A stretch of DNA of 64,000 bases, from contig NC_007511.1 in the NCBI RefSeq assembly GCF_000012945.1, forward strand, positions 1,674,001 through 1,738,000, in the 5' to 3' direction. The stretch is from Burkholderia lata (GTDB taxonomy: Bacteria; Pseudomonadota; Gammaproteobacteria; Burkholderiales; Burkholderiaceae). Positions 17,054-34,670 of the stretch are shown here, one piece after another. The notes below the pieces were generated by a model. The model worked only from the letters and a program-made list of their open reading frames with translations. It did not search any database and had not been told where the DNA came from. Within the stretch, counting starts at the first letter, position 1; every line of letters begins with the position of its first letter. The position numbers and the translations under genes were made by a program.

Positions 17054-17066
17054 CTTGGTATTCGTC

Positions 17067-17092: not shown

Positions 17093-17157
17093 CGATGTCG
17101 TTCGAATTGACCGATCGTGTCTGTATTCGTGCGACTGCGTTTTCAAGAGACCACAAC

Positions 17158-18078: not shown

Positions 18079-18101
18079 CCACCGCGGCATGATCGACAGA
18101 T

Positions 18102-18127: not shown

Positions 18128-18416
18128 CTTTCATGTCGATCGAGGACGTTCATAAAGCGATGGCTTATCGCCTGGTAGCCCAGGTTGCGAACGGCTGCTT
18201 CAGGGCGGCTGGGGTGGCCGGCGCGGGGGGCTACTCAGTCCACCGCAACCGGCGGGTGCGGATTCTCGACGCAACTGCGTTCATCGTCGACAATTGATCC
18301 CCGAGTTGCCAAAACGTCGTTGCCATTCTTGAATCAAATCGCCTCTACTGTTTCAAGTACCGTGGGAACCAACGACGGCGGTCATCACACTTCATGCGAG
18401 AGATTCTCCATAAACC

Positions 18417-19325
18417 ATGCAGACGGAAATCGAAGCGCCGGGCCCAGCCGGCCCGTTGAAAGGCACGCTCTTGTCCCCGGACACCGCTGATGTTCCGGTG
18501 GTGCTGATCGTGCCGGGCTCGGGCGCGACCGACAGAAATGGCAATGCGCCGAGCTGGCTTCAGGCGTCGACTTATCGATTGCTCGCGGAAGGATTGTGCG
18601 AAGAAAGTATCGCGTCGGTACGAATCGACAAGCGCGGCATGTACGGCAGCGCGTCGGCGATACCTGATGCCAATGACGTCACGATCGAGGACTACGCGGC
18701 CGACATTCACGCGTGGGTCGCCGCCATCCGGGCGCGGACAGGTGCTTCCAGCGTGTGGGTGTTGGGGCACAGCGAGGGCGGTTTGGTGGCGTTGCTGGCG
18801 GCGCGGCAATCGGCCGATATCGCAGGCCTGATCCTGGTTGCCACGCCGGGACGCCCGCTAGGGCCCGTATTGAGGCAGCAACTGCGATCGAATCCGGCAA
18901 ATGCACCGTTCCTGGAAAATGCAATGTCGATCCTCGATTCGCTGGAAGCAGGAGATCGGGTAGATGCAGCCAGGATCGATCCAGTCCTCATGCAGTTGTT
19001 CCGGCCGCAAGTCCAGCGCTTCCTGATGAGCGAATTGACTGTCGATCCGGCAGCGCTGCTGGCCGATTACATGAAGCCCGTGCTCATCGTGCAGGGTGCG
19101 CGGGATATCCAGGTTGGCGTACAGGACGCGGAACTGCTGAAGCATGCCAATCCGCGGGCCGAAATGGCGCTGATCGCCGACGCCAATCACGTGCTCAAGA
19201 CGGTTGGGACGGTGGATCGGCAAGAAAACCTCGCCGCTTATTCGAACCCGGATTTACCGCTGGCGAAGGGTGTCGTGACGGCGATTTCGGCATTCGTGCA
19301 GGCATCGACAGCGAGCCAGCGCTAG
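18417..19325 (+). CDS. Alpha/beta-hydrolase
   Basis: A 302-residue hydrolase with an oxyanion-hole stretch PGSGATDRNGN (about 31-41) and the nucleophile elbow GHSEGG (Ser at about 121). Near the C-terminus are an acid region (IVQGARDIQV) and a catalytic His in DANHVLK. Domain layout matches the cytosolic dienelactone hydrolase/BAAT-like esterases. There is no signal peptide. The substrate is unknown and the neighbours give no pathway hint. Confidence 0.85.
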   Translation: MQTEIEAPGPAGPLKGTLLSPDTADVPVVLIVPGSGATDRNGNAPSWLQASTYRLLAEGLCEESIASVRIDKRGMYGSASAIPDANDVTIEDYAADIHAWVAAIRARTGASSVWVLGHSEGGLVALLAARQSADIAGLILVATPGRPLGPVLRQQLRSNPANAPFLENAMSILDSLEAGDRVDAARIDPVLMQLFRPQVQRFLMSELTVDPAALLADYMKPVLIVQGARDIQVGVQDAELLKHANPRAEMALIADANHVLKTVGTVDRQENLAAYSNPDLPLAKGVVTAISAFVQASTASQR

Positions 19326-19513
19326 TCCCGGTCGAATCCGGCTCGTCCGTTGGGGCGGCCTATACCAGGACAGACAACCGCCAGACGACATCAAGCGTGG
19401 CGGTCGGGAAGCAGGCGTGGCCGCTGCAGCCCGCGTCGGCCGAACACGTCTAGCAGGAGTCGGCCGGCAGGTGACATTCGGCGTACATCCGTAAATCGCC
19501 GGAAATTGCGGCA

Positions 19514-19933
19514 TCAACGACCCAGATAATCAGTCACGCGAGCCTGCAAATGCGGGATCGCATCGGTGAGCCGCAGATACGCGTCGACATCCATCAGCGC
19601 CCATTCCTGGCCTTCGTCGCCGAAACGGATCGCGCCGATTTCCGCACCGCTCAGCCAGCTGGCAAAGAACCAGTGTGGCAGGCGGTCCGGTCGATTCGAC
19701 GGATAGACCCGCGACCAACCGATCCGGCTGCCCGGTATCGTCAATCCGAATTCCTCATGGAGTTCACGTAGCACGCAAGCTTCGGGCGTCTCGTTCCCTT
19801 CCCGGCCTCCGCCCGGCAGGTCCCACAGACCGGGAAACGGTATGTCGGGCTTGTCGTCGCGTCGATAGACGAGGATTTCCCGGTCCTTGAAGAGCGCGAT
19901 TTTCGAACCACTGAAGGGGGCGGGCGATTCCAT
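19514..19933 (-). CDS. Nudix hydrolase
   Basis: A 139-residue protein with a Nudix box starting GGGREGNETPEA and ending RELHEEFGL (about 41-64), with all essential Gly, Arg and Glu residues. DLPGGG precedes it, as in MutT and ADP-ribose pyrophosphatase relatives. It would cleave a nucleoside diphosphate linked to another group. ATG at 19933 gives the typical length; the frame is open further upstream without support. It is convergent with the hydrolase and divergent from the GNAT gene at 20107. Confidence 0.88.
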   Translation of the reverse strand: MESPAPFSGSKIALFKDREILVYRRDDKPDIPFPGLWDLPGGGREGNETPEACVLRELHEEFGLTIPGSRIGWSRVYPSNRPDRLPHWFFASWLSGAEIGAIRFGDEGQEWALMDVDAYLRLTDAIPHLQARVTDYLGR

Positions 19934-20106
19934 GCAGGATCCATATCGTGGAAGCGGGGTTGTCAGTGTAGATTCTCGGACATCGACGCGTACGCTCGAT
20001 TTAATATAAGCATCCGTTCGGCACGACAACGATGATCCGGCAGGCGCTCGCGTAGCCTGAAAATTAGCGTCGGCCCGGGGCCGGGCATATTCCGCATATA
20101 GACGAG

Positions 20107-20619
20107 ATGAACGCGATGGTGTCGATCAGAGCAGCGAGGCAGGCAGACGCCGCGCGTATTGCCGTGCTCGGCGCACATGTTTGGGTGGACACCTACGCAG
20201 CGGCGGGCGTGTCCGAGGTCATTGCACAGTACGTGCTGAGGACTTTTACGACCGAACGAATCCTGACTCTGGTGAACGATCCTGGCGCCGTCCTGCTGGT
20301 TGCCGAGGCTGACGGGAATCTTGCCGGATATATGGTCATCCGCTTGGGTTCGCACCATGCAGATGTCCCGGTCGAGATTGAAACGCTCTACGTCCAGGCG
20401 ACCTTTTCCGGTCGTGGAATCGGATCGTCACTGCTGACGCATGCGAGCGGCATTGCAGAGGAGAGAACCGGAAGTCGGTCACTCTGGCTCAGCGTCAACT
20501 CGCAAAACGAGAAGGCCATCGCGTTCTACCGTTCCCGGGGAATGGCGCAGGAAGGGACTGCGTACTTTGAGCTTGGCGGGATCCGGCACGAGAACAAGAT
20601 CATGGTCGCCCGGGGCTGA
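20107..20619 (+). CDS. GNAT-family N-acetyltransferase
   Basis: A 170-residue GCN5-related acetyltransferase. The acetyl-CoA pyrophosphate loop reads FSGRGIGSSLL (about 100-110) after the strand IETLYVQ. The C-terminal LSVNSQNEKAIAFYRSRGM is the usual motif-B region with Asn and Tyr. The acceptor substrate cannot be told. It is a monocistronic-looking gene in the less GC-rich part of the window. Confidence 0.85.
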   Translation: MNAMVSIRAARQADAARIAVLGAHVWVDTYAAAGVSEVIAQYVLRTFTTERILTLVNDPGAVLLVAEADGNLAGYMVIRLGSHHADVPVEIETLYVQATFSGRGIGSSLLTHASGIAEERTGSRSLWLSVNSQNEKAIAFYRSRGMAQEGTAYFELGGIRHENKIMVARG

Positions 20620-20773
20620 CAGGGCTCCTGGCGTCGTGAAGCGCTGTCGAGCGCCGGGAAGTGTGCTGCATCGACGGGTTGAATCCGCAACGAACATGGC
20701 GGGCCGTTGAGGTGCGAGGCCGCCGCTGGCCGGTACCGGTCAACCACCGATGCACGGAAACAAAAAACGAACC

Positions 20774-21139
20774 ATGACAAACCTGATTCGATTCCGCGTC
20801 CGACCGGTATTTCACGGTAGCGATCTTCTAGTCGAGGTACTTGACGACCATCGGACGGTGGATTTTCCAAACGTCGCTGCGATCCTGCAAGATACGCTGC
20901 ATTCGGTCCAGGTCCCGCATCCGGACGGCCTGGATGAACCCGAGGTCGCATTGTCTCAAGACCGCTACTTCAGCTATTGGACATACGCTCGGGGCAGCTA
21001 CGAAATAGACGACGATATCTGGGGCCTGTTCGTCACGGCAACGATCAACAACTTGCCCATCGTCGCGGACATCGAAAAAGCCCTTCTTTCAACGGGAAAG
21101 TTCGTCAAGGAAGAAGTGGATTTCAGTGCGTTCAGGTGA
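20774..21139 (+). CDS. Hypothetical protein (121 aa)
   Basis: A compact acidic protein starting MTNLIRFRVRPVFHGSDLLV, with mixed strands and helices and no signal or membrane segment. An ATG 8 codons upstream is equally possible; neither has a clear ribosome site. It resembles small single-domain proteins found beside toxin or acetyltransferase genes, but I recognise no family and assign no function. Confidence 0.6.
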   Translation: MTNLIRFRVRPVFHGSDLLVEVLDDHRTVDFPNVAAILQDTLHSVQVPHPDGLDEPEVALSQDRYFSYWTYARGSYEIDDDIWGLFVTATINNLPIVADIEKALLSTGKFVKEEVDFSAFR

Positions 21140-21211
21140 GTTGAAACGAGCCGGCGACGCACCCAAGCGCTCCACCGGCCCGCAACAGAACACCGCAATC
21201 CATCCGGGGAA

Positions 21212-21236
21212 AGGTGATCGCACCACGCGATCACCT
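21212..21236 (-). terminator. Terminator of the EthD gene
   Basis: AGGTGATCGC and GCGATCACCT (10-bp perfect arms) flank a 5-base loop, starting 4 bp after the EthD stop codon. Read on the minus strand the stem is followed by TTTCCCC. It lies between convergent genes and could act in both directions. Confidence 0.6.
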
Positions 21237-21240
21237 GACT

Positions 21241-21957
21241 TCACCCCCGCACAGCCTTCACCACATACTGACTCGTCGGCACCACATCGATCTTGTCGAA
21301 ATCGATGAAGCGCCCGCAGCTATCCATCATCTCCGCCACGTTCCGCTGGAATTTCTCATCATCACCGACCGCGTCGAAGAACGCGTGCGGATCGGTCATC
21401 GCGGCGGCGGGGAAGCATTCCTCGACGATCGCGTCGTACCCGGGCGCCGCATGCGTGAGCGCCCGCACAACGACGTTCTGCACGTACAGGAAATTGTCCT
21501 GCGTATCGATCGCGACGCGCGTGTGATGTCCGTGCCACACGTCTAGCCATGCTTCGTGCGTCAGCCGCGGTGGCCGCTTCAAGAACGCGAGCTGCGAAAA
21601 ACCCGTAGTGCGCTCGCCCGGCCGCGCCGGAAAGCGCGTATTCGGAATCGGCTGCGACTCGGTGACGAGATACGCCGCCATGTGCGGGACCACGGCGCGC
21701 ACCGCGTCGTCGAACGGCTGGCGGAACATCGCGTTCGCGCTGTCGACCCACACCGCGACGATCCCGTCGATGCCCGGGTGCGTGTTGGTCTGCTTCAGGC
21801 CGGCGGCCGGTGCGACATCCGCATCCGCGACGTTCACCTGCACGCCGTGCGCACCGAGCGACAGCAGCTTGTCGGCGAGCTGCGCGCGCACCGTGCGGTT
21901 CCACTGATCGGGTGCGACCTGCGCGTCGCGCCACAACACGTAAATGACTTTCTCCAT
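21241..21957 (-). CDS. EthD-domain protein (two-repeat)
   Basis: A 238-residue protein whose second half carries the EthD signature region: FLKRPPRLTHEAWLDVWHGH, then VRALTHAAPGYDAIVEECF (about 126-185). The first half (MEKVIYVLWRDAQVAPDQW) looks like a diverged repeat of the same ferredoxin-like fold. EthD proteins accompany cytochrome P450 or SDR catabolic genes and often act as small lyases, cyclases or chaperones of unstable products. It follows the NTF2-like gene by 50 bp on the same strand, in the catabolic block flanking pckG. Confidence 0.82.
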   Translation of the reverse strand: MEKVIYVLWRDAQVAPDQWNRTVRAQLADKLLSLGAHGVQVNVADADVAPAAGLKQTNTHPGIDGIVAVWVDSANAMFRQPFDDAVRAVVPHMAAYLVTESQPIPNTRFPARPGERTTGFSQLAFLKRPPRLTHEAWLDVWHGHHTRVAIDTQDNFLYVQNVVVRALTHAAPGYDAIVEECFPAAAMTDPHAFFDAVGDDEKFQRNVAEMMDSCGRFIDFDKIDVVPTSQYVVKAVRG

Positions 21958-22007
21958 TGCTCCGGCTCCAGGGGGAATGACGGGATCGGCGGCGGGGCCG
22001 CCGGGGT

Positions 22008-22520
22008 TCAGGAAGCGGTTTCAGGCGATCCGGCCGCCTGGTGCGCGCCCGGTGCGAACCGGTTCGCGGTCAGCGAGAACGACGGCGGGATCGGCGACGT
22101 GACGGTTTCGAACAGCCGCTCGTGGCGCGTCGCGTGAATGCGCCATACGCCGTCGCGTTTTACGTACTGGTCGTCGTAGAACGCGGTGCCGTGCAGCAGG
22201 TAGTTATCCTCAAGATTGATCGCGTGATCCTCGAGAAACCACACACCGCACGCGTGATCGGCCGAGACCAGCGTGAGCTCCGGATGATGGCCGTGATGCA
22301 TCGTCAGGAAGGTCGGCTTGCCGATCAGCTCACGCAGGCTCGATACGAACGCGTCACGGCCGTCGTACGCATAGCGGCCGCCGTACAGCCGCGCCTCGCA
22401 GTCTTCGGTCAGGCAATCGGCGAGCAGCGCCCAGTCGTGCGTGTCGACCGCGCGGAAATACCGGTACTTCAACTGTCGGATCTGCTCGTACTCATGGAGC
22501 GTGCGGGTCGTGTCGTCCAT
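22008..22520 (-). CDS. NTF2/SnoaL-like protein
   Basis: A 170-residue protein with an NTF2-like cone fold. A YRYFRAVDTHDWALLADCLT helix pair is followed by strands including HHPELTLVSADHACGVWFLED and YYDDQY-type motifs (AFYDDQYVKRDGVWRI). Related proteins are ketosteroid isomerases, dehydratases and hydroxylating-dioxygenase small subunits. It is transcribed divergently from a second NTF2-like gene at 22733, with a 27-bp inverted repeat in the shared promoter region. Confidence 0.85.
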   Translation of the reverse strand: MDDTTRTLHEYEQIRQLKYRYFRAVDTHDWALLADCLTEDCEARLYGGRYAYDGRDAFVSSLRELIGKPTFLTMHHGHHPELTLVSADHACGVWFLEDHAINLEDNYLLHGTAFYDDQYVKRDGVWRIHATRHERLFETVTSPIPPSFSLTANRFAPGAHQAAGSPETAS

Positions 22521-22629
22521 CGCCGGGTCTCGTGGTGGTGTCGTTCGATGGTAGGAACGAAGGCGCCTGCGTCACATCGTCTGTTCGGACGAATGCCGTT
22601 GTCGAACATGAACGGCGCCGCCGAAACGA

Positions 22630-22656
22630 ATCACCGGTTTCATCCGAACGGGTGAT
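22630..22656. promoter_or_regulatory. Inverted repeat in the divergent NTF2/NTF2 promoter region
   Basis: ATCACCGGTT and AACGGGTGAT are complementary at 9 of 10 positions with a 7-base spacer, 77 bp before the gene at 22733 and 110 bp before the one at 22520. A regulator binding here could coordinate both directions. No regulator gene is found in this block. Confidence 0.45.
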
Positions 22657-22732
22657 GGCCGCCGCATCGTGCGGCGGTAACGTGGCATCGACGCGGCGTT
22701 CGAACCGCGCCGGCACCGAACAAGGAGACAGG

Positions 22733-23233
22733 ATGACCCTCATCGAATCGCTGGAAGCGCGCGTGCGCCGGCTCGAGGACGCCGACGCAATTCGCCGGCT
22801 GAAGGCGCGCTACTTCACGTGCTGCGACCGCAAGGATCCGGAAGGCATGCGCGACTGCTTCGCGCCCGGCCACGTGCCCATCGACTACGGCGTGATCGGC
22901 ACGTTCGACACGCGCGACGCGCTGGTCGACGTCTTCGCGCAACTCGGCTGCCATCCGCACATCGTCGAGATGCACCACGGCGTGAATCCCGAGATCGATG
23001 TGCTCGACGCGACGCATGCGCGCGGCACGTGGGGCCTGCACTACCAGATGATCGACACGAACGCACGCACGCTCACGCAGCTCGGCGCGTACTACGACGA
23101 CGAATACCGGAAGGTCGACGGCGAATGGAAGATCGCGGGCACGCGCTGCGTCGTCACGTCGACGCTGTCGGCCCGCTACGAAGGCGATGCGCCGGGCGTG
23201 CTGTTCGCCGGCGCGCAGCCGCCGGCCGCCTGA
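22733..23233 (+). CDS. NTF2/SnoaL-like protein
   Basis: A 166-residue NTF2-fold protein: RLEDADAIRRLKARYFTCCD (about 13-32), then IVEMHHGVNPEI, WGLHYQMID and YYDDEYRKVDGEWKIAGTRC. ATG at 22733 follows AAGGAGACAGG. It has the same fold as the divergent neighbour but is only modestly similar. The buried His and Asp positions suit an isomerase or dehydratase, though the catalytic residues cannot be proven. It is the first gene of a four-gene plus-strand operon ending at 25802. Confidence 0.87.
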   Translation: MTLIESLEARVRRLEDADAIRRLKARYFTCCDRKDPEGMRDCFAPGHVPIDYGVIGTFDTRDALVDVFAQLGCHPHIVEMHHGVNPEIDVLDATHARGTWGLHYQMIDTNARTLTQLGAYYDDEYRKVDGEWKIAGTRCVVTSTLSARYEGDAPGVLFAGAQPPAA

Positions 23234-23283
23234 CGCACGCCAGTGCCACCCACGTGGCGCACATTCCACAGGAGACATCGAAC

Positions 23284-24150
23284 ATGACACAGAAACACGA
23301 TGCGCCGGTTGCCGTCGTGACGGGCGCATCGCGCGGCGCGGGCAAGGGCATCGCGCGCGCGCTCGGCGCGGCCGGCATGACCGTCTATGTAACGGGCCGC
23401 TCGCAAAACGAAGGCGATGCGCCGCTGCCCGGCACGATCCACGAGACCGCACGCGAGATCGATGCGCTTGGCGGCCGCGGGATCGCAGTGGCCTGCGACC
23501 ACGCGGACGACGCGCAGGTGAAGGCGCTGTTCGAGCGTGTCGAACGCGAAAGCGGGCGGCTCGACATGCTCGTCAACAACGCGACCTACCTGCACGATCA
23601 GCTGATCCTGCCGGGCCCGTTCTGGGAGAAGTCGCTCGACCTCGTCAACATCCTCGATGTCGGGCTGCGCTCGGCCTATGTCGCGAGCTGGCACGCGGCG
23701 CGGCTGATGGCCCAGCGTCGCAGCGGGTTGATCGCGTTCACGTCGTCGTTCGGCGCGAGCTGCTACATGCACGGCGCGGCCTACGGTGCGCAGAAGTCCG
23801 GCGTCGACAAGTTCGCGAAGGACATGGCCGTCGATCTGAAGCCGTTCGACGTCGCGGCCGTGTCGATCTGGATGGGCCCGCTGCGCACCGAGCGCACGAC
23901 GCGCGTGTGGGAAGAACACCCGGATCTGTACAAGGAATTCTCGCTCGTCGCGGAAAGCCCGGAGTTCACGGGCCGCGTGATTCATGCGATCCACGGCGAT
24001 CCGCAACGCATGGCGCTGTCGGGGCAGGTGCTCGTCGGCGCGGAAGCCGCGCTGCGGTACGGCATCGCCGATCTCGACGGCAAGCAGCCGCCGTCGTACC
24101 GCGAACTGCTCGGCGGGCCCGTGCAGGCGCATCCGGCGATCGTCGCCTGA
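23284..24150 (+). CDS. Short-chain dehydrogenase/reductase
   Basis: A 288-residue SDR with TGASRGAG (about 13-20), the NNA motif as NNAT rather than NNAG, a serine in TSSFGAS and YGAQK as Tyr-Lys. The C-terminal 60 residues (AALRYGIADLDGKQPPSYRE) differ from classical SDRs and match the large SDR group sometimes called DHRS1-like. Good ribosome site: GGAGACATCGAAC before the ATG. It is the second gene of the operon. Confidence 0.88.
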   Translation: MTQKHDAPVAVVTGASRGAGKGIARALGAAGMTVYVTGRSQNEGDAPLPGTIHETAREIDALGGRGIAVACDHADDAQVKALFERVERESGRLDMLVNNATYLHDQLILPGPFWEKSLDLVNILDVGLRSAYVASWHAARLMAQRRSGLIAFTSSFGASCYMHGAAYGAQKSGVDKFAKDMAVDLKPFDVAAVSIWMGPLRTERTTRVWEEHPDLYKEFSLVAESPEFTGRVIHAIHGDPQRMALSGQVLVGAEAALRYGIADLDGKQPPSYRELLGGPVQAHPAIVA

Positions 24151-24159
24151 GGAGCGTAC

Positions 24160-24915
24160 ATGGGCATCCTGACAGGCAAGGTCGCGCTCGTGACGGGCGC
24201 GGGGCAGGGCGTCGGCCAAGGCGTTGCGCAGGCACTCGCTGCGGAAGGCGCGCAGGTCGCCGTGGTCGGTCGTACGCGCGACAAACTGCTCGCGACCTGT
24301 GAAGCGATCCGCACGCGCGGCGGTGTAGCGGAGCCGTTCGTGTGCGACGTGATGGACGCAACGCAGATCGAGCAGTGCGTCGCCAGCGTCGTCGCGCGGT
24401 TCGGTGGCGTGCAGATCCTGATCAACAACGCGCAGGTCGTGCCGCTCGGCCGCCTGCTCGACGTGACCGATGCGGATTTCATGGCGGGGCTCGAATCGGG
24501 GCCGATCGCGACGCTGCGGATGATGCGCGCGTGCCATCCGTATCTGAAGGGCGATGGCGTGATCGTCAATTTCGCGTCGTCGGCCGCGGTGCGCTGGGAT
24601 GCGTCCGGCTACGGCGCGTATGCGGCGACCAAGGAGGCGATTCGTGCGTTGACGCGCGCGGCCGCCTGCGAATGGGGCGTGGACGGCATCCGCGTGAACG
24701 CGGTCGCGCCGCATGCGTTGTCGCCGGGGCTGAAAGGCTGGGTCGATGCGAATCCGCAGGAAGCCGCGGCGTTCTTCCGCACGATTCCGCTCGGCCGCGT
24801 CGGCGACTGCGAGCAGGACATCGGGCGCGCGATCGTATTCCTGGCGAGCCGCGATGCCGCGTACCTGACGGGCGCGACGCTGCCGCTCGACGGCGGGCAG
24901 GCTTACTGGGGCTGA
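24160..24915 (+). CDS. Short-chain dehydrogenase/reductase
   Basis: A 251-residue classical SDR. It has TGAGQGVG, NNAQ, a serine in FASSAAV, YAATK as the active-site Tyr-Lys and a closing LPLDGGQAYWG. It begins 9 bp after the previous SDR, with GAGGAG 7 bp upstream of the ATG, so the two are co-expressed. Probable NAD(P)-dependent alcohol or ketone enzyme of the pckG-flanking pathway. Confidence 0.88.
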   Translation: MGILTGKVALVTGAGQGVGQGVAQALAAEGAQVAVVGRTRDKLLATCEAIRTRGGVAEPFVCDVMDATQIEQCVASVVARFGGVQILINNAQVVPLGRLLDVTDADFMAGLESGPIATLRMMRACHPYLKGDGVIVNFASSAAVRWDASGYGAYAATKEAIRALTRAAACEWGVDGIRVNAVAPHALSPGLKGWVDANPQEAAAFFRTIPLGRVGDCEQDIGRAIVFLASRDAAYLTGATLPLDGGQAYWG

Positions 24916-25025
24916 CGGCGGGGGGCCGACGGCGCGCGGCGCTGGCCGCGTACCAATCATGAACCGGCAAGCACGCGCCCACATGCGCGCGGCAGCCGGA
25001 AAACCGGATTCGAAGAGAGGACGAC

Positions 25026-25802
25026 ATGGGTCGACTGGAAGGAAAGGTAGCGATCGTCACGGGTGGTGCGCGTGGCATGGGTGCGGCGACGTGCCGGTTG
25101 TTCGTCGCGGAGGGCGCGTGCGTCGTGATCGGCGACGTGCTCGACGCGGAAGGCGAAGCGCTCGCGCGCGAGCTTGGCGACGCGGCGCGCTTCATGCGGC
25201 TCGACGTCGCCGACGAAGCGAACTGGGTGCGCGTGACCGACGCGACGATGGAGCAGTTCGGCCGTATCGACGTGCTGGTCAACAATGCGGCCGTGCTGAC
25301 GTTCGGCGGCATCACCGAGCTGTCGAAACGCGATTTCGAACGCGCGGTGTCGATCAACCTCGTCGGGACGTTCGTCGGCATCCGGACCATCGCGCCGCAC
25401 ATGATCGCGCAGAAGAGCGGGTCGATCGTCAACATCTCGTCGGTGGACGGGCTGCGCGGCGTGAACGCGCTGGCCGCGTACGTATCGAGCAAGTGGGGCG
25501 TGCGCGGGCTGACGAAGGTCGCGGCGCTCGAACTCGGCCACCAGGGCGTGCGCGTGAATTCGATCCATCCGGGCGGCGTGAACACCGCGATGTCGAACCC
25601 GACCGGCGCGCCGCTCGAGGAAATCAACAAGCACTACGCGAACGTGCCGCTGCAGCGCGTCGGCCTGCCCGACGAAATCGCGCGCGCGACGCTGTTCCTC
25701 GCGAGCGACGACGCGTCGTACTGCAACGGCGCCGAGCTGGCCGTCGACGGCGGGATGGCGGCAGGCGCGTATTACCCCGGATTGCCTGGCGCACCGTTTT
25801 GA
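25026..25802 (+). CDS. Short-chain dehydrogenase/reductase (3-alpha/20-beta-hydroxysteroid dehydrogenase-like)
   Basis: A 258-residue classical SDR with TGGARGMG, LVNNAAVL, NISSVDGL, YVSSK and LAVDGGMAAG. The motif order is close to the 3-alpha(20-beta)-hydroxysteroid dehydrogenase group, in which a Gly-Leu after the catalytic Ser (VDGLRG) is common. GAGAGGACGAC precedes the ATG. It is the fourth and last gene of the plus-strand operon. Confidence 0.88.
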   Translation: MGRLEGKVAIVTGGARGMGAATCRLFVAEGACVVIGDVLDAEGEALARELGDAARFMRLDVADEANWVRVTDATMEQFGRIDVLVNNAAVLTFGGITELSKRDFERAVSINLVGTFVGIRTIAPHMIAQKSGSIVNISSVDGLRGVNALAAYVSSKWGVRGLTKVAALELGHQGVRVNSIHPGGVNTAMSNPTGAPLEEINKHYANVPLQRVGLPDEIARATLFLASDDASYCNGAELAVDGGMAAGAYYPGLPGAPF

Positions 25803-25918
25803 GCACGGGCGCTCGTCGCACGCTCCTGTCAGATGTTTGTGTACGCAACCTAATTCGGGGTTTCCCGCAGTAGCGAAAACGCGAATTCGCACGGCTTGCG
25901 TTGGCGTTTGCGAAGCGC

Positions 25919-25984
25919 GGGAGCGGCAGGCCGATTTTGCCGCTCCCACGAAACCCTTGCCGGACGGCCGTCCCGGCCGTTTTG
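25919..25984 (+). terminator. Two hairpins after the SDR operon
   Basis: The first hairpin has 10-bp arms GGGAGCGGCA and TGCCGCTCCC (25919-25947). The second, ACGGCCG-TCC-CGGCCGT, runs 25964-25980 and is followed by TTTG. The second looks like an intrinsic terminator for the SDR operon, 160 bp past its stop. The rest of 25985-26327 is the pckG leader, in which I see no convincing promoter or RNA element. Confidence 0.5.
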
Positions 25985-26327
25985 TCCCCAAAGCGCACGC
26001 AATGGCGCGGTAAAAAGCACGCACAGGCAACCGGCGTGCCGGCTCGCCGACATAGTTGTTTCTTGTTGCAACGCAACGTTTGCCGAATAACGGCGATGGT
26101 ATGCTGGCCGTCATGGAGTTGTACGGCAGGTTGCTTGTATGGCGAAACTCGCGTTCGCAATTACTAAAGAGACATCACCTTCTCTCGCATGCATCGCGGC
26201 ATCGACGCGCGCTCCGCTCGCGCGTCTCGCCCTGCGTGCCGCCGCACCCTGCGCTCCAATCGCATCCCCCATCTCGCGGGCTCGCCCCGCAACCCCCATC
26301 CCCGCCCAATAATCTGGAGACATCCTC

Positions 26328-28193
<1,866 letters not shown>

Positions 28194-28220
28194 CGGTCCG
28201 CATCGACGGCGTTGTCCTGA

Positions 28221-28262
28221 CGTCCCGCCGCCGGCATGCATCGCCGGCGGCGGGACGTTTTT
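28221..28262 (+). terminator. Intrinsic terminator of pckG
   Basis: A 15-bp perfect GC-rich stem (28221-28235 with 28243-28257) with a 7-base loop is followed by TTTTT. It lies 28 bp after the pckG stop. The convergent minus-strand operon ends at 28291, but on that strand there is no U-tract. Confidence 0.93.
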
Positions 28263-28290
28263 GCATCGGCTCTACACGCGCACCGTTCGC

Positions 28291-29199
28291 TTACTGCGCG
28301 CGGCAATGCGCGACGACTTCATCCACCGCGCGCTGCACGTCGCCGCGCCGGTAGCGCAGCAGCGCGCTGTCGGCCGGATCGGGCTCGTACGACACGACGT
28401 TGCCGCGCCCCGTGTAGATCGCCATGTCGGGCAGCAGCGGATGCTCCTGGTCGAGCGACGGCACGTCCTGCGGATTGCCGGCCGCGCGGAAGAAGGCCGC
28501 GAAGTAGTCGGCAAAGCTGAGGTTCTCGTCGCCGACGAGGTAGGCCTTGCCCGTTTCGCCGCGCTGCAGCGCCCCCCAGATCGCTTCCGACAGCGATTGC
28601 GTCGAGATGAAGTTGCTGCCCCCGGCCGGCCCGAACACGGGCAGCCCCGCGAACTGACCCTGCGCATAGCCCGTGTAGGCAGCGAACATCTCGTTGTGCA
28701 GCCCCGGCACCGATCCGACGACGAACGGTGCATTGACGCTGCAGACGGCAAACGACGGCGTCGCGAGCGCACGCACGCGTTCGTCGGCGAGATGGCGCGA
28801 GCGCACGTACGGCACCGTGTCGACGAGCGCCGGCGCGACTTGCGGATAGAAGCTGCCGACCAGCACCGCACGCTTCACGCCCGCGTCGCGTGCGAGCGCG
28901 AAGAAGCGCGGCACCGCGTCGACGTTCGCGCGTTCCCAGTGCGCAGCTTCGTCGGTGCCGGGCGGCAGGTGGCGGATGTCGTTGCCGGCGGCGAACACCA
29001 CTGCATCGAACGGCGCGAGATCGTCGCGCGTGAAGTTGCCGGCCACGTAGTCGCGCAGCAGCAAGTCGAACTGCGCGAGCGCGCTGCCGGGCGCGGGCGG
29101 CTTGCGCGCGGCGAGCGTGACGTGGTTGCCCTGCGCGTGCAGGTACAGCGCGGCATGGCCGCCAATGAGGCCGGTGCCGCCGACGATCAGGATCTTCAT
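28291..29199 (-). CDS. Atypical NAD-dependent epimerase/dehydratase
   Basis: A 302-residue extended SDR with GGTGLIGGHAA at the N-terminus. The usual YxxxK reads YVRSR at the corresponding position after the GSFYP strand, so the catalytic lysine may be missing or displaced. FVVGSVPGLHN and LVGDENLSFADYF follow. ATG at 29199 is used with GGGAGACACC upstream. It is the last gene of a five-gene minus-strand operon. The non-canonical active site argues for an NmrA-like or lactone/hydroxy-acid role rather than sugar epimerisation. Confidence 0.8.
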   Translation of the reverse strand: MKILIVGGTGLIGGHAALYLHAQGNHVTLAARKPPAPGSALAQFDLLLRDYVAGNFTRDDLAPFDAVVFAAGNDIRHLPPGTDEAAHWERANVDAVPRFFALARDAGVKRAVLVGSFYPQVAPALVDTVPYVRSRHLADERVRALATPSFAVCSVNAPFVVGSVPGLHNEMFAAYTGYAQGQFAGLPVFGPAGGSNFISTQSLSEAIWGALQRGETGKAYLVGDENLSFADYFAAFFRAAGNPQDVPSLDQEHPLLPDMAIYTGRGNVVSYEPDPADSALLRYRRGDVQRAVDEVVAHCRAQ

Positions 29200-29257
29200 G
29201 GTGTCTCCCGTAGCGGCGCAACCGCGCCGCGTGAAATGAACAGGCGAGCGGTGCCGC

Positions 29258-30094
29258 TCAGAAGTTGAAGCCGTTGCCCGTGACGACGGGCATGTTGGTC
29301 CAGAAGCCGTTCGGGTCGCGATACCAGCCGGCCGCCGCGAGCGCGCCGCCGTCGACATGCAGCGTCGTGCCGGTGATCCACGCGGCGAGCGGGCTCGCGA
29401 GGAACAGCGCGGCGCCCGCGATATCGCCGGCCGCGCCGAAGCGCCCGAGCGGGATCCAGCGCGGGATGTGCTCGCGATGCTCGGCCGCGACCATTGCGCT
29501 CACAGGCACCTGAGGCGTCTCGGTGGTCTCGGGAGCGATCTGGTTCACGCGAATGCCGGCCGGCCCGAGTTCGACGGAAAGGCTCTTCGTGAATCCGGTC
29601 AACGCAGCCTTGAACGACGCGTACACGGTGCAGTTCGGAATCGCGCGAAAGCCTTCGATCGACGACACGCCGACGATGCTGCTGCCCGCACCGCGCTTGC
29701 GCAGCAACGGCAGCATCGCGCGCGTGACGATGAAGACCTGGCGCAGGTTCACGTCGAACAGTCGCGCGATGTCGTCGTCGGTATAGTCGTCGAACGGTTT
29801 CGCGATCTGCAGGAAATCGCCCACATTGTTGACGAGCACGTCGAGGCCGCCGAAACGTGCGTCGACGGTTCGCGCGAATGCATTGACCTCGTCGCGGCGC
29901 GTGACGTCCACGGTGCCGACGAGCGCATCGACGCCCGCCGCTTCGAGCGCCTGGCGCACGTCCTGCGCGCGGGCCGGGTCGATCTCGGCCACTGCGACGC
30001 GCGCGCCGGCCGCGCCGAACGCTTCCGCGCACGCACGGCCGATGCCAGCGCCGCCGCCGGTGATCAGCACGGTCTTGCCGGTGAATGAAATCAT
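29258..30094 (-). CDS. Short-chain dehydrogenase/reductase
   Basis: A 278-residue SDR with TGGGAGIG, LVNNVGDF, VGVSSIEG, YASFK and TLHVDGGALAA. The C-terminus has an extra 25-residue tail (WYRDPNGFWTNMPVVTGNGF). An AAAGGAGT ribosome site precedes the ATG at 30094. It is the fourth gene of the operon, 58 bp before the epimerase gene, and a likely hydroxysteroid- or cyclohexanol-type dehydrogenase by subgroup. Confidence 0.88.
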   Translation of the reverse strand: MISFTGKTVLITGGGAGIGRACAEAFGAAGARVAVAEIDPARAQDVRQALEAAGVDALVGTVDVTRRDEVNAFARTVDARFGGLDVLVNNVGDFLQIAKPFDDYTDDDIARLFDVNLRQVFIVTRAMLPLLRKRGAGSSIVGVSSIEGFRAIPNCTVYASFKAALTGFTKSLSVELGPAGIRVNQIAPETTETPQVPVSAMVAAEHREHIPRWIPLGRFGAAGDIAGAALFLASPLAAWITGTTLHVDGGALAAAGWYRDPNGFWTNMPVVTGNGFNF

Positions 30095-30131
30095 CGATGG
30101 ACTCCTTTGAACGGGAAGGCAGGGCGTCGCG

Positions 30132-30890
30132 TCACAGCGACGACACCAGTTGTGCGTTGTCGATCCGCAGCTCCGCACCGTTCACGAAACGCGATTCGTC
30201 GGACGCGAGGAACAGCACGAGATTCGCGACGTCCTGCGGGTCGCACATGCGCGCCATCGGATCGCTGCCGATACCGAGCGCGGCCGGGTCGAGATCGGGC
30301 ATCAGCGCCTGCGTCATCGGCGTCCAGATCCCGTCCGGATGGATCGAGTTGCAGCGGATCCGGTAACCGCTGCGTTTGCAGTGCACGGCGACGCTGCGCG
30401 CGAGCGCCGTCACCGCGCCTTTGGACCCGGTGTATGCGCACATCATCGGCAACCCGCCGAGCGCGGCGACCGACGACATCATCACGATCGAGCCCGGCGT
30501 GTCGTTCCCCTTCATCGCGCCGATCGCATACTTGCAGCCGAGGAAATAGCCATCGGCATTGGTGCGCATCACGCGCCGCCACGTGTCGAGGCTCGTGTCC
30601 TCGATCGAACCGACCGGGCAGATCGCCGCGTTGTTGACGAGCACGTCGAGACGGCCGAAGCGGTCGAGCGTCGATGCGATCGCATGCTGCCAACCGGCTT
30701 CGTCGGCGATGTCGTGGCGGACGAACAGCGCCGCGTCGCCGATCTCGCGTGCGAGCGCACGGCCCGCGTCCTCGTCGATGTCGGTCAGCACGACACGCGC
30801 GCCTTCGGCGGCGAGCAGCAGCGCATCCGCGCGGCCGACGCCGCTTGCCGCGCCGGTGACCAGCGCGACCTTGTTTGCGACTCGATTCAT
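30132..30890 (-). CDS. Short-chain dehydrogenase/reductase
   Basis: A 252-residue classical SDR with TGAASGVG, LVNNAAIC, MMSSVAAL and YTGSK. The usual C-terminal DGG is replaced by LRIDNAQ. ATG at 30890 is chosen for the Rossmann start NKVALVTG; the frame remains open upstream. The segment NSIHPDGIWTPM fits the steroid/alicyclic-alcohol dehydrogenase group. Third gene of the minus-strand operon. Confidence 0.88.
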   Translation of the reverse strand: MNRVANKVALVTGAASGVGRADALLLAAEGARVVLTDIDEDAGRALAREIGDAALFVRHDIADEAGWQHAIASTLDRFGRLDVLVNNAAICPVGSIEDTSLDTWRRVMRTNADGYFLGCKYAIGAMKGNDTPGSIVMMSSVAALGGLPMMCAYTGSKGAVTALARSVAVHCKRSGYRIRCNSIHPDGIWTPMTQALMPDLDPAALGIGSDPMARMCDPQDVANLVLFLASDESRFVNGAELRIDNAQLVSSL

Positions 30891-30930
30891 GGTCGGTCGA
30901 ATTCCTTTGAGGTTGAAAGAAGGCCGGCAC

Positions 30931-31788
30931 TCATGCGGCGCCCGGCACGCGGCCGGCCTTGATCGCGTCGAGCGCGGCCGTGCCGTAGATCTGCGCGATC
31001 GTGTCGTCGACGCGCGGGTTGGTGCGCAGCTCATGGCCGCCGTCGACCGCGAAGCTCTGGCCGGTCACCCAGCCCGACTCGGGGCCGGCGAGATAGCGCA
31101 CTGCATGCGCGATCGCTTCCGGCTCGCCGAGCGTGCCGAGCGGGATCTGTTCGAGAAAGCTGTCGACGAGCGCGCGGTTGTCGAACATCGGCGCGGTGGC
31201 TTCGGAGCGCGTGAGGCCCGGGCGCACCGCGTTCACGCGGATCTTCGCGCCGGCCAGTTCCTCGGCCGCGCCGCGCACGAGCGCTTCGAGCGCGGCCTTC
31301 GCGGTGCAGTACGCGGACAGCCAGCGGAAATTGATCTGCGCGGCCGTCGACGAAATGCAGACGATCGCGCCGCCGCCGCTGTCGGCGAGCCGCGGGGCGG
31401 CATGACGGATCGCAGCGAACGCGCTGTGCAGGTTCAGGTCGATTTCGGCGCGGAAGGTGTCGGCGTCGTGCAGCAGCAGCGGCCGGAAGCCCGCACCGCC
31501 GACCGTCGGCACGACGATGTCGAGGCGCTTGTCGAGTGCCCATGCGCAGTCGAGCGCGGCTTGCAGGTCGGCCTCGTCGCAGGCGTCGCCCGCATGGATC
31601 GCGACGCGGCTGCCGGGTACCGCGTCGGTCAATTGCCGCTGCGTGCGTTCGAGCGCATCGCGGCGGCGGCCCATCAGCACGACGGCCGCGCCGTCGGCGA
31701 CGAGCGCGTGCGCGCAGGCCGCGCCGATGCCGCCGGCGCCGCCCGTCACGAGCGCGGTGTGGCCGTTGAGGGGAGCAGGGGTGCGCAT
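30931..31788 (-). CDS. Short-chain dehydrogenase/reductase
   Basis: A 285-residue SDR with TGGAGGIG. At the structural NNAG position it has PTVGGAG, an unusual substitution. Active-site residues are SST and YCTAK, and VDGGHE closes the cofactor domain. A 30-residue C-terminal extension follows. It begins 3 bp after the NTF2-like gene, so the two are translationally coupled. Second gene of the operon. Confidence 0.86.
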   Translation of the reverse strand: MRTPAPLNGHTALVTGGAGGIGAACAHALVADGAAVVLMGRRRDALERTQRQLTDAVPGSRVAIHAGDACDEADLQAALDCAWALDKRLDIVVPTVGGAGFRPLLLHDADTFRAEIDLNLHSAFAAIRHAAPRLADSGGGAIVCISSTAAQINFRWLSAYCTAKAALEALVRGAAEELAGAKIRVNAVRPGLTRSEATAPMFDNRALVDSFLEQIPLGTLGEPEAIAHAVRYLAGPESGWVTGQSFAVDGGHELRTNPRVDDTIAQIYGTAALDAIKAGRVPGAA

Positions 31789-31791
31789 CGT

Positions 31792-32208
31792 TCAGCCCTC
31801 CAGCGGCAGGTCTTGGGCCCAGTCGACGTGCAGCGTGCGCGCGGCGAAGCGCCACGTGCCGCTGTCGAACACGCAGCGGTCGCGATAGCGCAGCCCCCAG
31901 TCGAGCTTGCGCTTCACGCCGTCGCGCACGTAGACGTGGCAGGCGACGCCGTAGGTTTCGACATCGGCCTCGCCGCCGTCGAGCGTGACGAGCTGGTTGT
32001 GCACGTGATGCTGGGTCGCTTCGTAGCGCTCGATCACGCGCATGCCCGCGACGATCGCGTCGCGGTCGTCGAAGCGGAAGCCGGGGCCGGCCAGGTTGGC
32101 ATCGGGGGTGAAGAGTGCGGTGAGGCGTGGCCAGTCGCGCCGGTCGACGGCTTGCGCGTAGCGGCACGCCAGTTCGTACAGCGCGTGGCGGGGATTGGAA
32201 TCGGTCAT
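31792..32208 (-). CDS. NTF2/SnoaL-like protein
   Basis: A 138-residue NTF2-fold protein: CRYAQAVDRRDWPRLTALFT (about 15-34), then FDDRDAIVAGM, HHVHNQLVTLDG and RTLHVDWAQ. It is the first gene of the minus-strand five-gene operon and pairs with the following SDR as in the plus-strand operon. Ketosteroid isomerase-like or dehydratase-like chemistry is plausible; the substrate is unknown. Confidence 0.86.
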   Translation of the reverse strand: MTDSNPRHALYELACRYAQAVDRRDWPRLTALFTPDANLAGPGFRFDDRDAIVAGMRVIERYEATQHHVHNQLVTLDGGEADVETYGVACHVYVRDGVKRKLDWGLRYRDRCVFDSGTWRFAARTLHVDWAQDLPLEG

Positions 32209-32669
32209 GCGTTGGCTCCCGTGGAAGAACGGAACGCGTCGGCCGCGCGAGGCGGGCCGACGCGGCGGCATTGCGACGTCGACGCGCAGGTTCGCACCGG
32301 GCAGGCCGGGATTCATCATCCATACGGAGCAGGGCAAGGGTCGGGGAAAACACCGGGTCAGGCCGTGACGCGTCACATGAGGACGCATGGATGGTGCGGC
32401 GCAGCGACCGGCGCGCGACATGCGTCAGACGATTCGTGTGGCCGGCTGCGACAGGCGCGCGACGTGCCGCGTTTCATCCATGTGAGCGAAGCCGCGGTGC
32501 GCGATGTTGCGATGCGGCAGGTCGCGCATCGTCCGCTCAGCGTTTGCCCCTAGTCGAAACGGACGATGGCCGGTGGCCGGGCGCTGGCTACCGTGCAGTC
32601 ATCCGGTGCCGCATGCGATGCACGCCGGACACGAACCGCACCAGCGGACAACCGGAGGGGACGACGATC
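32209..32669. other. Divergent intergenic region without a gene
   Basis: Between the NTF2-like start and the small exported protein I see no supported gene, RNA or clear operator. Frames crossing it are Arg/Ala-rich shadows. Promoters for the minus-strand operon must lie here. Confidence 0.5.
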
Positions 32670-32879
32670 ATGAGACTGACGACTCGCAAGCTGTGCGTAT
32701 TGGCGATAGGCACGTTCGCTGCCATGGCGATGGCGCGATACGGCGCCGATCAGATCCCGTCGCCGCCGTATGCAGCCGGCATCCTGCAATGCCGCTCGGT
32801 CGACGCGAATGGTTTGCCGATCGGATGCGTGCCGATCGATCCGTCGCACTTCGGTTTCGCCGCGATGCGCGGCATGTGA
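32670..32879 (+). CDS. Small exported or membrane-anchored peptide
   Basis: A 69-residue product. The N-terminus (RLTTRKL, then a hydrophobic core to about residue 22) looks like a signal peptide or anchor. The remainder, about 45 residues, has two cysteines (QCRSVDANGLPIGCVPI) that could form a disulfide outside the cytoplasm. CGGAGGGGACG precedes the ATG. No family recognised; it lies between the NTF2 operon and the flavoprotein. Confidence 0.55.
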   Translation: MRLTTRKLCVLAIGTFAAMAMARYGADQIPSPPYAAGILQCRSVDANGLPIGCVPIDPSHFGFAAMRGM

Positions 32880-33173
32880 CGCCAGTGCCGACGCCGGCGC
32901 CGATGCGGCCGCGCGTCGCGCAGCGCGGAAGCCGTGGCGCGCGATGGCGTACGGATGTCTTTTGCTACGCCCACGGTTGCATCACCTTGGGGCGATCCGG
33001 TTTCACGCGGTTCGACTTCATCCGGACATGAGGCGGTGAGCGTCTGGCACGCGCGCCGTCTCGCAACCATCCCGGCAACAGGGCATTGCGACGACGTCCA
33101 CGCTGCAACGTCTGTCAGGCCCTCGTCACATCCGCCGCTTTCCGCAGATTTCCCCAACGCTGACCCATTCCTC

Positions 33174-34670
33174 ATGTCATCCGACTATTCCCTGACTCAC
33201 CCCCTGAATACCCGCGACGTGCATCACTGGGACGCCGAACACGATGTCGTGATCGTCGGCTTCGGCGCGGCCGGCGCCTGCGCGGCGATCGAGGCCGCGA
33301 GCGCCGGCGCCGACACGCTGATCGTCGAGCGCGCATCGAGCTATGGCGGCACGAGCGCGCTGTCGGGCGGCGAGATCTACCTCGGCGGCAGCGGCGGCAC
33401 GCCTGCCCAGCGGCAGGCCGGCTTTACCGACGACACCGAGGATCTGTACCGCTACCTGATGCTGGCCGGCGGCCGCGACGCCGACGACGCGAAGGTGCGC
33501 CTCTACGCGAACGAAAGCCTGGCGCACCACGACTGGCTCGTCGCGCAAGGCCTCACGTACAAGAACACGTTCATCGCAGAGCGGATCGTCGAACCGGAAA
33601 CCGACGACTGCCTGATCTGGTCGGGCAGCGAGGAAGCCTGGCCGTTCAGCGAGGCCGCGAAGCCGTGCCCGCGCGGGCACACGCCGCAATGGCCGGGCTG
33701 GGGCGGCGGGCAGATGCTGATGCGCGTGCTGGCCGAACGCGTCGCGGCGCTCGGCGTCGCGACGCGCTACGACACGCGCGCGCTCGCATTGATCGTCGAT
33801 GATGGCGGCACGGTGCGCGGCGTCGTGCTGCGCGCCTATGGCGAGACGGCGTTCGTGCGGGCGCGTCGCGCGCTGATCCTGTGCGCAGGCGGCTTCGCGA
33901 TGAACCGCGAGATGGTGCGCCGGCACGCGCCGCAGTTCCTGCGCTCGGACGAACCGATCGGCAGCCCCGGCGACGACGGCTCGGGCATCCTGCTCGGCCA
34001 GAGCGCGGGCGGCGCGGCGATCCACATGGATCAGGGCTTCGTCAGCCTGCCGTTCTACGCGCCCGAAGCGCTGATCAAGGGCATCTTCGTGAACGCGCGC
34101 GGCCAGCGCTTCATCAACGAGGACGGCTATCACGGCCGCACGGGTCATCACGCATTTCACCAGGCCGACGACCGGATCTACCTGCTCGTCGACCAGGCGA
34201 CGTATCAGGAGCCGCCTGCGATCGCGCGGATCGGCATCGCGGCGGCTGGCGAAACGTGGGAGGAAGTCGAACGCGACCTGCAGATGCCGGCCGGCACGCT
34301 GACGGCGACCGTCGACGTGTACAACCGCCATGCGGCCGAAGGTGTCGATCCGCTGTTCCACAAGGCGAAGAAGTGGCTGCAGCCGCTGATCGAGCCGCCG
34401 TTCGTCGCGCTCGATTGCCGGATCGACTATGCGTTCTATCCGCACTTCACGCTCGGCGGGCTCGACACGCTGCCGACCGGGCAGGTGGTCGATGCATCAC
34501 GCGCGCCGGTGCCGGGGCTCTATGCGGCGGGCCGTACGACCTGCGGGCTGCCGCGCTGGGGCGCCGGGTACAGCTCGGGGCTGTCGCTGGCCGACGCGAC
34601 GTTCTTCGGCCGGCAGGCCGGGCGTCACGCCGCGCAAGTGGAGTGCGACGCAGTGCGCCGCGCCGCGTAG
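33174..34670 (+). CDS. 3-Ketosteroid-1-dehydrogenase-like FAD flavoprotein
   Basis: A 498-residue flavoprotein of the fumarate-reductase/KstD superfamily. It shows VVIVGFGAAGACAAIEA (about 25-41), SYGGTSALSGGEIYLGGSGG, LILCAGGFAMN (about 238-248) and the C-terminal FAD contact GLYAAGRTTCG, then WGAGYSSGLSLADATFFG. These fit 3-ketosteroid delta-1-dehydrogenases and related ring desaturases more than soluble fumarate reductase, since no heme domain or Tat signal is present. It would introduce a double bond next to a ring carbonyl. An in-frame upstream extension exists; the ATG at 33174 is preferred. It closes the SDR/NTF2 block. Confidence 0.82.
   Translation: MSSDYSLTHPLNTRDVHHWDAEHDVVIVGFGAAGACAAIEAASAGADTLIVERASSYGGTSALSGGEIYLGGSGGTPAQRQAGFTDDTEDLYRYLMLAGGRDADDAKVRLYANESLAHHDWLVAQGLTYKNTFIAERIVEPETDDCLIWSGSEEAWPFSEAAKPCPRGHTPQWPGWGGGQMLMRVLAERVAALGVATRYDTRALALIVDDGGTVRGVVLRAYGETAFVRARRALILCAGGFAMNREMVRRHAPQFLRSDEPIGSPGDDGSGILLGQSAGGAAIHMDQGFVSLPFYAPEALIKGIFVNARGQRFINEDGYHGRTGHHAFHQADDRIYLLVDQATYQEPPAIARIGIAAAGETWEEVERDLQMPAGTLTATVDVYNRHAAEGVDPLFHKAKKWLQPLIEPPFVALDCRIDYAFYPHFTLGGLDTLPTGQVVDASRAPVPGLYAAGRTTCGLPRWGAGYSSGLSLADATFFGRQAGRHAAQVECDAVRRAA

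Follow-up and report, generated by a model that had tools for sequence, protein, structure and literature searches.

A conserved gene block around pckG in Burkholderia as a probable accessory module for the catabolism of hydroxylated steroids

Described steroid systems and the gene block of Burkholderia lata

The 9,10-seco pathway of steroid degradation is known from Comamonas testosteroni, Rhodococcus, and Mycobacterium tuberculosis, and gene sets for it have been predicted for Burkholderia, Ralstonia, and Cupriavidus, mostly without cholate side-chain genes; for Cupriavidus, the same study confirmed that steroids are metabolized (PMC4810484). Hydroxyl groups of the nucleus are oxidized, inverted, or eliminated during degradation (PMC8399759), and SteC is described as an NTF2-family dehydratase for the 12β-hydroxyl group (PMC13101464). 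Hsh3, a 7β-hydroxysteroid dehydratase with an EthD domain, stands outside the NTF2-like superfamily of the 7α-hydroxysteroid dehydratases Hsh2 and BaiE; its family became known in 2025 from sphingomonads and from metagenomes of environmental samples, and its locus lies outside the main steroid clusters (PMC12175502). In that work, an absorption maximum moving from 245 to 290 nm indicated the dehydrated product. Among the Δ4 dehydrogenases, the 5α type (KstD4, KstD of R. jostii, and TesI) differs from the 5β type (PMC8044976). Here, we analyzed a stretch of 64,000 nucleotides (the window, G000:C3:1674001-1738000) from the 8.68-Mb genome of Burkholderia lata, in which 12 genes for short-chain dehydrogenases/reductases (SDRs), NTF2-like proteins, an EthD-domain protein, and a flavin adenine dinucleotide (FAD) enzyme surround pckG. 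Judging from its sequence, this block is very probably an optional accessory module that turns hydroxylated, probably 5α, steroids into substrates for a 9,10-seco core.

Gene calls were made from Pfam scans, open reading frame (ORF) lists, and start trimming, and all genes that an earlier note on this DNA had named were recovered with the same positions and families. Of its 12 genes, six encode classical SDRs, a seventh encodes an extended SDR (Epimerase), and three encode SnoaL_4/NTF2 proteins; the EthD protein and the FAD_binding_2 enzyme account for one gene each. On the minus strand lie ethD (21241..21957, PF07110) and ntfA (22008..22520, PF13577), followed on the plus strand by ntfB (22733..23233, the second PF13577 protein), sdr1 (23284..24150, adh_short), sdr2 (24160..24915, adh_short_C2), and sdr3 (25026..25802). 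Beyond pckG (26328..28193, plus strand), which encodes a GTP-type phosphoenolpyruvate (PEP) carboxykinase (NF003253, 1025.9 bits; cut-off, 504), the minus strand carries epi (28291..29199, epimerase family PF01370), sdr4 (29258..30094, adh_short_C2), sdr5 (30132..30890), sdr6 (30931..31788, adh_short_C2), and ntfC (31792..32208, the third PF13577 protein); kstD (33174..34670, FAD_binding_2) follows on the plus strand. Both halves converging on pckG have a like composition, each with one NTF2 protein and three SDRs. They are no simple duplication of each other: the highest identity is 42% (sdr3/sdr5), and the NTF2 proteins reach at most 35% (ntfA/ntfB).

The block shares much of its gene set with the surroundings of an Hsh3 homolog. 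Table 2 of the Hsh3 paper gives three homologs of Hsh3 (WP_097093216.1), including WP_234810817.1 (84%) and WP_011906908.1 (62%) (PMC12175502), and the likeness to Hsh3 was measured against these listed homologs. A plasmid search with ethD yielded 21 records, 18 of them from sphingomonads, and matched the genes of both. The product of ethD aligned full-length with WP_011906908.1 (48.8% identity over 231 of 238 amino acids) and showed 50.5% identity over 216 amino acids to that of the WP_234810817.1 gene. As in the Hsh3 locus of Sphingomonadaceae (Sphingobium sp. Chol11 and pNL2), the EthD protein is encoded beside SDRs, and a 13-kb stretch of plasmid pNL2 of Novosphingobium aromaticivorans holds, with its Hsh3 homolog, relatives of eight block genes at 34–67% identity: sdr3 (66.5%), sdr2 (62%), ethD, sdr1 (57%), sdr4 (60%), ntfC (34.5%), sdr6 (50%), and epi (57%). 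The ntfC relative is an NTF2 gene between two SDR genes and next to the epimerase gene. The SDR gene directly upstream of the Hsh3 homolog resembles sdr2 in both N. aromaticivorans (62%) and S. herbicidovorans (58%), the remaining surroundings matching more weakly in the latter (28–42%). No relatives of kstD, ntfA, ntfB, or sdr5 were found in the 13-kb pNL2 stretch, although for ntfA a relative was located in another part of the plasmid. Unlike the block, the stretch also has P450, ferredoxin, Rieske protein, and sulfotransferase genes; VOC, flavin monooxygenase, and Rieske genes adjoin it.

Close relatives of ethD also occur in Cupriavidus, Ralstonia, Pandoraea, Paraburkholderia, and Pseudomonas (among the best 120 of 2914 matches). 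Parts of the block recur in Burkholderia, Cupriavidus, Ralstonia, Pseudomonas, and Novosphingobium, and Rhodococcus has a distant counterpart. Plasmid pDND3A of the actinobacterium Rhodococcus gordoniae (L159) carries consecutive EthD-like, SDR, NTF2, and FAD genes with 27–38% identity to the block. Burkholderia does not occur in the main text of the Hsh3 paper (PMC12175502), and among the literature matches listed, Hsh3 in this sense is mentioned only in PMC12175502 and PMC12882949.

Conservation of the block and its co-occurrence with the steroid core

We fetched 67 loci from 64 other genomes of the genus and counted a block gene at 70% identity and coverage. All 12 block genes were present in 23 loci, 9–11 in nine, and none in 31; one contig-cut locus (L039) had three, and three loci without pckG had five or six. 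Around pckG, 9–12 of the 12 genes were kept in order in 32 of the 64 other genomes, a 33rd being contig-cut. Since order and content are kept in so many genomes, this gene grouping is not by chance. The earlier note had taken the two halves and the KstD-like enzyme as one unit, to be abandoned if the halves never co-occurred in other genomes; their joint presence in these 32 genomes bears the unit out. Three of the 31 block-free loci are the pckG loci of G016, G024, and G052, whose block stands elsewhere. ethD, ntfA, ntfB, sdr1, sdr3, epi, ntfC, and kstD were retained in all 32 uncut block-bearing pckG loci, and sdr5 was absent or broken in eight of them, sdr6 in five, sdr4 in three, and sdr2 in one. 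The SDRs of the minus operon, sdr4, sdr5, and sdr6, are therefore the most dispensable part, being the most often lost.

Traces of the block were also seen in its absence. In seven blockless genomes (L054, L068, L071, L078, L085, L062, and L065), block remnants flank an intact pckG; the carriers are G037, G033, G026, G002, and G059 and, with short ethD stretches, G039 and G041. G052 has a block with a truncated kstD, a broken sdr6, and no pckG (L102), and KshA is encoded ca. 9 kb away on the same contig.

The block marker kstD and the core genes kshA and hsaC are distributed alike. A near full-length kstD relative with at least 84% identity was found in 35 of the 65 genus genomes, and fragments were found in G026, G052, and G002. 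kshA (at least 86%) was present in 36 of the 65, namely all 35 with near full-length kstD and G052, so that only one of the 30 genomes without near full-length kstD had it (Fisher p = 1e-17, ignoring kinship). On a pckG tree of 64 rows, from which G024 was omitted (broken pckG) and whose counts exclude G057 (incomplete assembly), the independent pairs that fall on supported branches number 8, and kstD and kshA changed alike in 7.9 of them (p = 0.008); the same was obtained for hsaC. HsaC was near full-length in 35 of the 65 genomes and partial in G026 and G059, both with block remnants. In a 200-genome sample of the family, kstD occurred in 15 genomes and HsaC in 25; HsaC accompanied kstD in 15 of 15 and was present in 10 of the 185 others. 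Outside the genus, all three of the sample's kstD genomes likewise had HsaC; with 177 of the 200 genomes counted as non-genus members according to the listed rows, the hypergeometric p is 3e-4. Of the 19 kstD-bearing genomes outside Burkholderia described below, 18 matched HsaC at E 1e-40, 17 of them nearly full-length at 49% identity or more; of the remaining two, one had a partial HsaC and one, a metagenome-assembled genome, had none. These counts show that the kstD marker is optional for steroid degraders, yet rarely found without them.

The core itself lies outside the window. A near-complete set of genes that looks like a 9,10-seco steroid degradation set was found at C3:1603093-1657769 (L151-L154), 37–92 kb upstream of the block; the earlier note had placed the entry steps elsewhere unless the substrate was already oxidized, and the entry and ring-opening enzymes are found here. 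The set starts with an LLM-type flavoprotein (C3:1603093), HsaA (C3:1604299; best solved relatives 2rfq, labeled "3-HSA hydroxylase, oxygenase", E 2e-82, and 3afe, E 4e-78), Δ1-KstD (C3:1605620, L151:11620-13380; 7p18, a 3-oxosteroid 1-dehydrogenase, E 1e-196), a PaaE-like reductase as KshB candidate (C3:1607911), and FadD3, for rings C/D (C3:1609012; NF005801, 834.1 bits; cut-off, 657). It continues with an HsaC-like protein (C3:1621450; best solved relative 2zi8, E 1e-73; best NCBIfam model HsaC), an IpdA-like protein (C3:1622356; 6co6, E 2e-73), an IpdB candidate with no family match (C3:1623260), a nitronate-monooxygenase-family protein (C3:1624989), an acyl-CoA dehydrogenase (C3:1626909), and a thiolase (C3:1634986). 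KshA (C3:1639897) has a Rieske domain and matches PF19298 at C3:1640266 (248 bits; cut-off, 23.3). An aldolase, dehydrogenase, and hydratase of HsaF/G/E type (C3:1650008-1652751) pass the cut-offs of TIGR03220, TIGR03217, and TIGR03215, families that are not steroid-specific; a DUF1302 protein (C3:1654294) and an alpha/beta hydrolase as HsaD candidate (C3:1656933, L154:2933-3769) complete the set. We take 2zi8, labeled BphC, to be M. tuberculosis HsaC, and 6co6, labeled CoA-transferase alpha subunit, to be IpdA. With KshA, Δ1-KstD, HsaA, HsaC-like, HsaE/F/G-type, FadD3, and IpdA-like proteins on one replicon with the block, the gene content of the host resembles that of known 9,10-seco degraders; the block itself stands apart from the core, and not every HsaC carrier has it (15 of 25 have kstD).

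A contig scan with kstD identified 42 loci. Of these, 19 lie outside Burkholderia, in Paraburkholderia, Cupriavidus, Ralstonia, Crenobacter, Pandoraea, Pseudomonas, Solimonas, Stenotrophobium, and Steroidobacteraceae; neighbor families were assigned by Pfam on one member per cluster. Ralstonia, Crenobacter, and one Pseudomonas have a KshA-type Rieske gene close to kstD. In Ralstonia, the neighbors further include genes for an MMPL transporter and a thiolase-type protein, and in Cupriavidus they include DUF1302 and DUF1329; Crenobacter and one Pseudomonas have an acyl-CoA ligase and an Old Yellow Enzyme there. sdr1 immediately precedes kstD in Cupriavidus (L126, L128), Ralstonia (L127, L129), and Pandoraea (L135). 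The Ralstonia, Cupriavidus, and G052 loci combine block genes with relatives of core-region genes, and relatives of the out-of-genus partner genes are present on the window's own replicon. No steroid-type family was seen among the scanned kstD neighbors in Cupriavidus pinatubonensis (L134) and Solimonas (L139). In Cupriavidus sp. UYMMa02A (L147), the kstD relative lies in several separate pieces and is apparently damaged.

Membership of the block in steroid catabolism is well supported. The families of its genes, their nearest relatives, their presence and loss together with the core, and the overlap in gene content with the pNL2 stretch are read directly from the sequences.

Candidate functions of the block genes

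kstD is a candidate 3-ketosteroid Δ4-(5α)-dehydrogenase gene. The best solved relative of its product is 4at0, the Δ4-(5α) enzyme of R. jostii (E 1.1e-121 over 480 residues; next, 2e-39), and NF005510 is matched with 914.9 bits (cut-off, 481). KstD keeps the Tyr of EDxYxGR and the Tyr and Ser of GYxSG seen in 4at0, residues that we take to be catalytic in this enzyme; its sequence has otherwise clearly diverged from that of 4at0. The Old Yellow Enzyme near the Crenobacter kstD, a candidate for a 5β-type desaturase, has host relatives at E 1e-20, six at 44–49% and eight at 30–36% identity, none of which lies within the steroid region. An Old Yellow Enzyme-family match at G000:C3:559614-560711 has two in-frame TGA codons and is possibly a decayed gene.

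Two unrelated folds supply the candidate dehydratases. Among solved structures, ntfA is closest to three BaiE sequences (E 4e-20 to 8e-17) and is a candidate for a 7α-type hydroxysteroid dehydratase gene of the BaiE/Hsh2 kind. Overall similarity is low (75 bits), but ntfA, five of its orthologs, and the relatives from N. aromaticivorans and R. gordoniae all keep five aligned positions, presumably the catalytic residues of BaiE. In contrast, ntfB and ntfC retain three of the five positions and deviate at two, and the truncated ntfC of G052 deviates at three. Against solved structures, the sole match of ntfC was a putative scytalone dehydratase (E 3e-5). ethD, on the strength of its likeness to the Hsh3 homologs, is a candidate 7β-hydroxysteroid dehydratase gene.

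The products of sdr3 and sdr5 are hydroxysteroid-dehydrogenase-like by their nearest relatives. For sdr3 these are 2hsd and 1hdc, 3α,20β-hydroxysteroid dehydrogenases, and 1nff (Rv2002), with E values from 1e-68 to 5e-66 (next, 1e-50), and for sdr5 the best is 1hxh, a 3β/17β-hydroxysteroid dehydrogenase (E 1.6e-62; next, 7e-53). In an NCBIfam scan of sdr2–sdr5 (best 25 models each), no substrate-specific cut-off was passed. The only model passed by sdr3 and sdr4 was the subfamily model PRK07231 (glucose 1-dehydrogenase), and the top model of sdr3, 4-hydroxycyclohexanecarboxylate dehydrogenase, remained under its cut-off. The solved relatives of epi were weak (E 1e-6) and none was informative.

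Taken together, the module may work as follows; we infer the catalytic activities and the order of steps, and the C7 position and the 5α specificity are taken from the nearest relatives. The products of sdr3, sdr5, and perhaps other SDRs would convert steroid hydroxyls to ketones, and KstD would introduce the C4–C5 double bond into 5α-H 3-ketosteroids. NtfA and EthD would dehydrate α- and β-configured ring hydroxyls, with C7 as the most likely position, in conjugation with the C4–C5 double bond. This product would enter the core, where Δ1-KstD and KshA would open ring B, HsaA and HsaC would cleave ring A, and HsaE/F/G and FadD3/IpdAB would complete the breakdown.

Alternative readings and the position of pckG

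Several observations weigh against an accessory module feeding a 9,10-seco core. As for the core, the HsaC candidate scored 311.8 bits, under the NCBIfam HsaC cut-off of 450, Δ1-KstD scored 591 bits, under its NCBIfam equivalog cut-offs (788), and no specific model in the NCBIfam and Pfam scans confirmed HsaB, HsaD, or IpdB. The draft assembly of G024 has kstD and kshA and no HsaC match. In the family sample, kstD is absent from 10 of the 25 genomes with HsaC; the module is therefore optional. In 9 of the 19 out-of-genus loci (L130, L133, L134, L136-L140, and L147), kstD has no other block gene of at least 45% identity nearby and therefore also travels alone. At least one of sdr4–sdr6 is absent or broken in 9 of the 32 loci, so that some are dispensable. 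Finally, the Hsh3 homolog of C. tardaugens is described as not cholate-induced (PMC12882949); the module may therefore serve other steroids.

The block could also be an accessory steroid module acting at another stage or position in place of C7 dehydration and 5α-desaturation, for example in the inversion and removal of the 12-hydroxyl group (SteA/SteB, Hsh1/SteC, and Sor1/SteD) or on C/D-ring intermediates (methylhexahydroindanedione propanoate, HIP). This is possible but doubtful. SteC is likewise an NTF2-family protein, and the dehydrogenases SteA and SteB precede Hsh1 and Sor1 as described in PMC13101464 and PMC8399759. One NTF2 protein with three SDRs per half would suit oxidation, inversion, and dehydration, and ntfB and ntfC depart from the BaiE residues. 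However, ethD is akin to the 7β-dehydratase family and ntfA to the 7α-dehydratase BaiE. An undescribed pathway for a non-steroid alicyclic compound or a terpenoid is very unlikely. Although the SDR, NTF2, and EthD families are broad and sdr2–sdr5 pass no substrate-specific cut-off among their best 25 NCBIfam models, the near-strict co-occurrence with kshA and hsaC, the joining to core steroid genes in other genera, and the specific steroid-enzyme relatives all speak against it, and it was dropped on the co-occurrence and neighborhood results.

Hydroxysteroid dehydrogenases and dehydratases can act alone, for instance in gut bacteria, and the block might accordingly only transform steroids, for signal modification or detoxification, with no catabolic feeding. 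We regard this as highly improbable, because the block is gained and lost together with the degradation core, and G026 and G059 pair block remnants with merely partial hsaC matches. The earlier note had proposed an undescribed ring-oxidation pathway, of which the steroid-like ring chemistry stands. The undescribed class does not: the core belongs to the 9,10-seco steroid pathway, which had been predicted in Burkholderia before (PMC4810484).

We regard pckG as a housekeeping gene that stands within the block as a bystander and is not part of it. It was present in all 65 genus genomes (in G024 in two pieces), including 29 without detected kstD or kshA, among them G057, an incomplete assembly with a partial block. 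Among the 22 pckG loci without the block that were inspected, window genes adjoin pckG on the left and right in 18, on the right only in two (G016 and G040), and on neither side in two (G035 and G052). Conversely, the block stands without pckG in G016, G024, and G052 and in all 19 mapped out-of-genus loci. The earlier note had let the block product enter gluconeogenesis through the PEP carboxykinase encoded within the block. It is true that pckG sits between the converging halves in 34 of the 65 genomes and that the synthesis of sugar from steroid carbon would require PEP carboxykinase. Given the universal presence of pckG, the flanks kept without the block, and the block kept without pckG, we give this proposal almost no credence, and the position of a gene inside a catabolic block need not imply a metabolic link. 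A simple recent translocation of pckG into the block was likewise not adopted, as the genes to the right of pckG are common to the block-free loci of G016 and G040.

Beyond the module itself, we tentatively suggest that the block is a conserved, undescribed route for 5α-configured, multiply hydroxylated steroids of plant, fungal, insect, or allo-bile type. Such a route would join a Δ4-(5α)-dehydrogenase, stereo-complementary but unrelated dehydratases of NTF2 and EthD fold, and hydroxysteroid dehydrogenases. If so, the Hsh3 family would extend beyond Sphingomonadaceae, and the unassigned NTF2, SDR, and epimerase genes of the block would receive their first roles. No description of this module was seen in the open-licence PMC papers cited here or among the further matches listed; the assignment of the block, the observation that carriers of the module are nested among steroid degraders, and the link to the Hsh3 family are new. 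An unexplained block beside pckG thereby becomes a testable steroid module. The EthD-fold dehydratase family has a 49%-identical counterpart here, and its SDR, NTF2, and epimerase partners are the same in Burkholderia and Novosphingobium. These partners are candidates for uncharacterized steps in the breakdown of hydroxylated steroids, with relevance to environmental steroid removal and steroid biotechnology.

Three minor features of the locus were recorded. In the two divergent intergenic stretches, considered as sites of an operator common to both promoters, no obvious palindrome was seen by eye in a conservation display, no motif search having been made. Upstream of the block, window positions 15714-21240 hold few confident ORFs by codon-position GC, the exception being a hydrolase gene (18417-19325). 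Between ntfC and kstD, a conserved ORF of 69 codons on the plus strand (32670..32879), overlooked in the earlier note, encodes a product with a hydrophobic N-terminus to which the Pfam scan gave no family; it had tblastn matches in 35 of the 67 fetched loci, and its 27 full-length copies showed 273 synonymous versus 204 non-synonymous codon differences.

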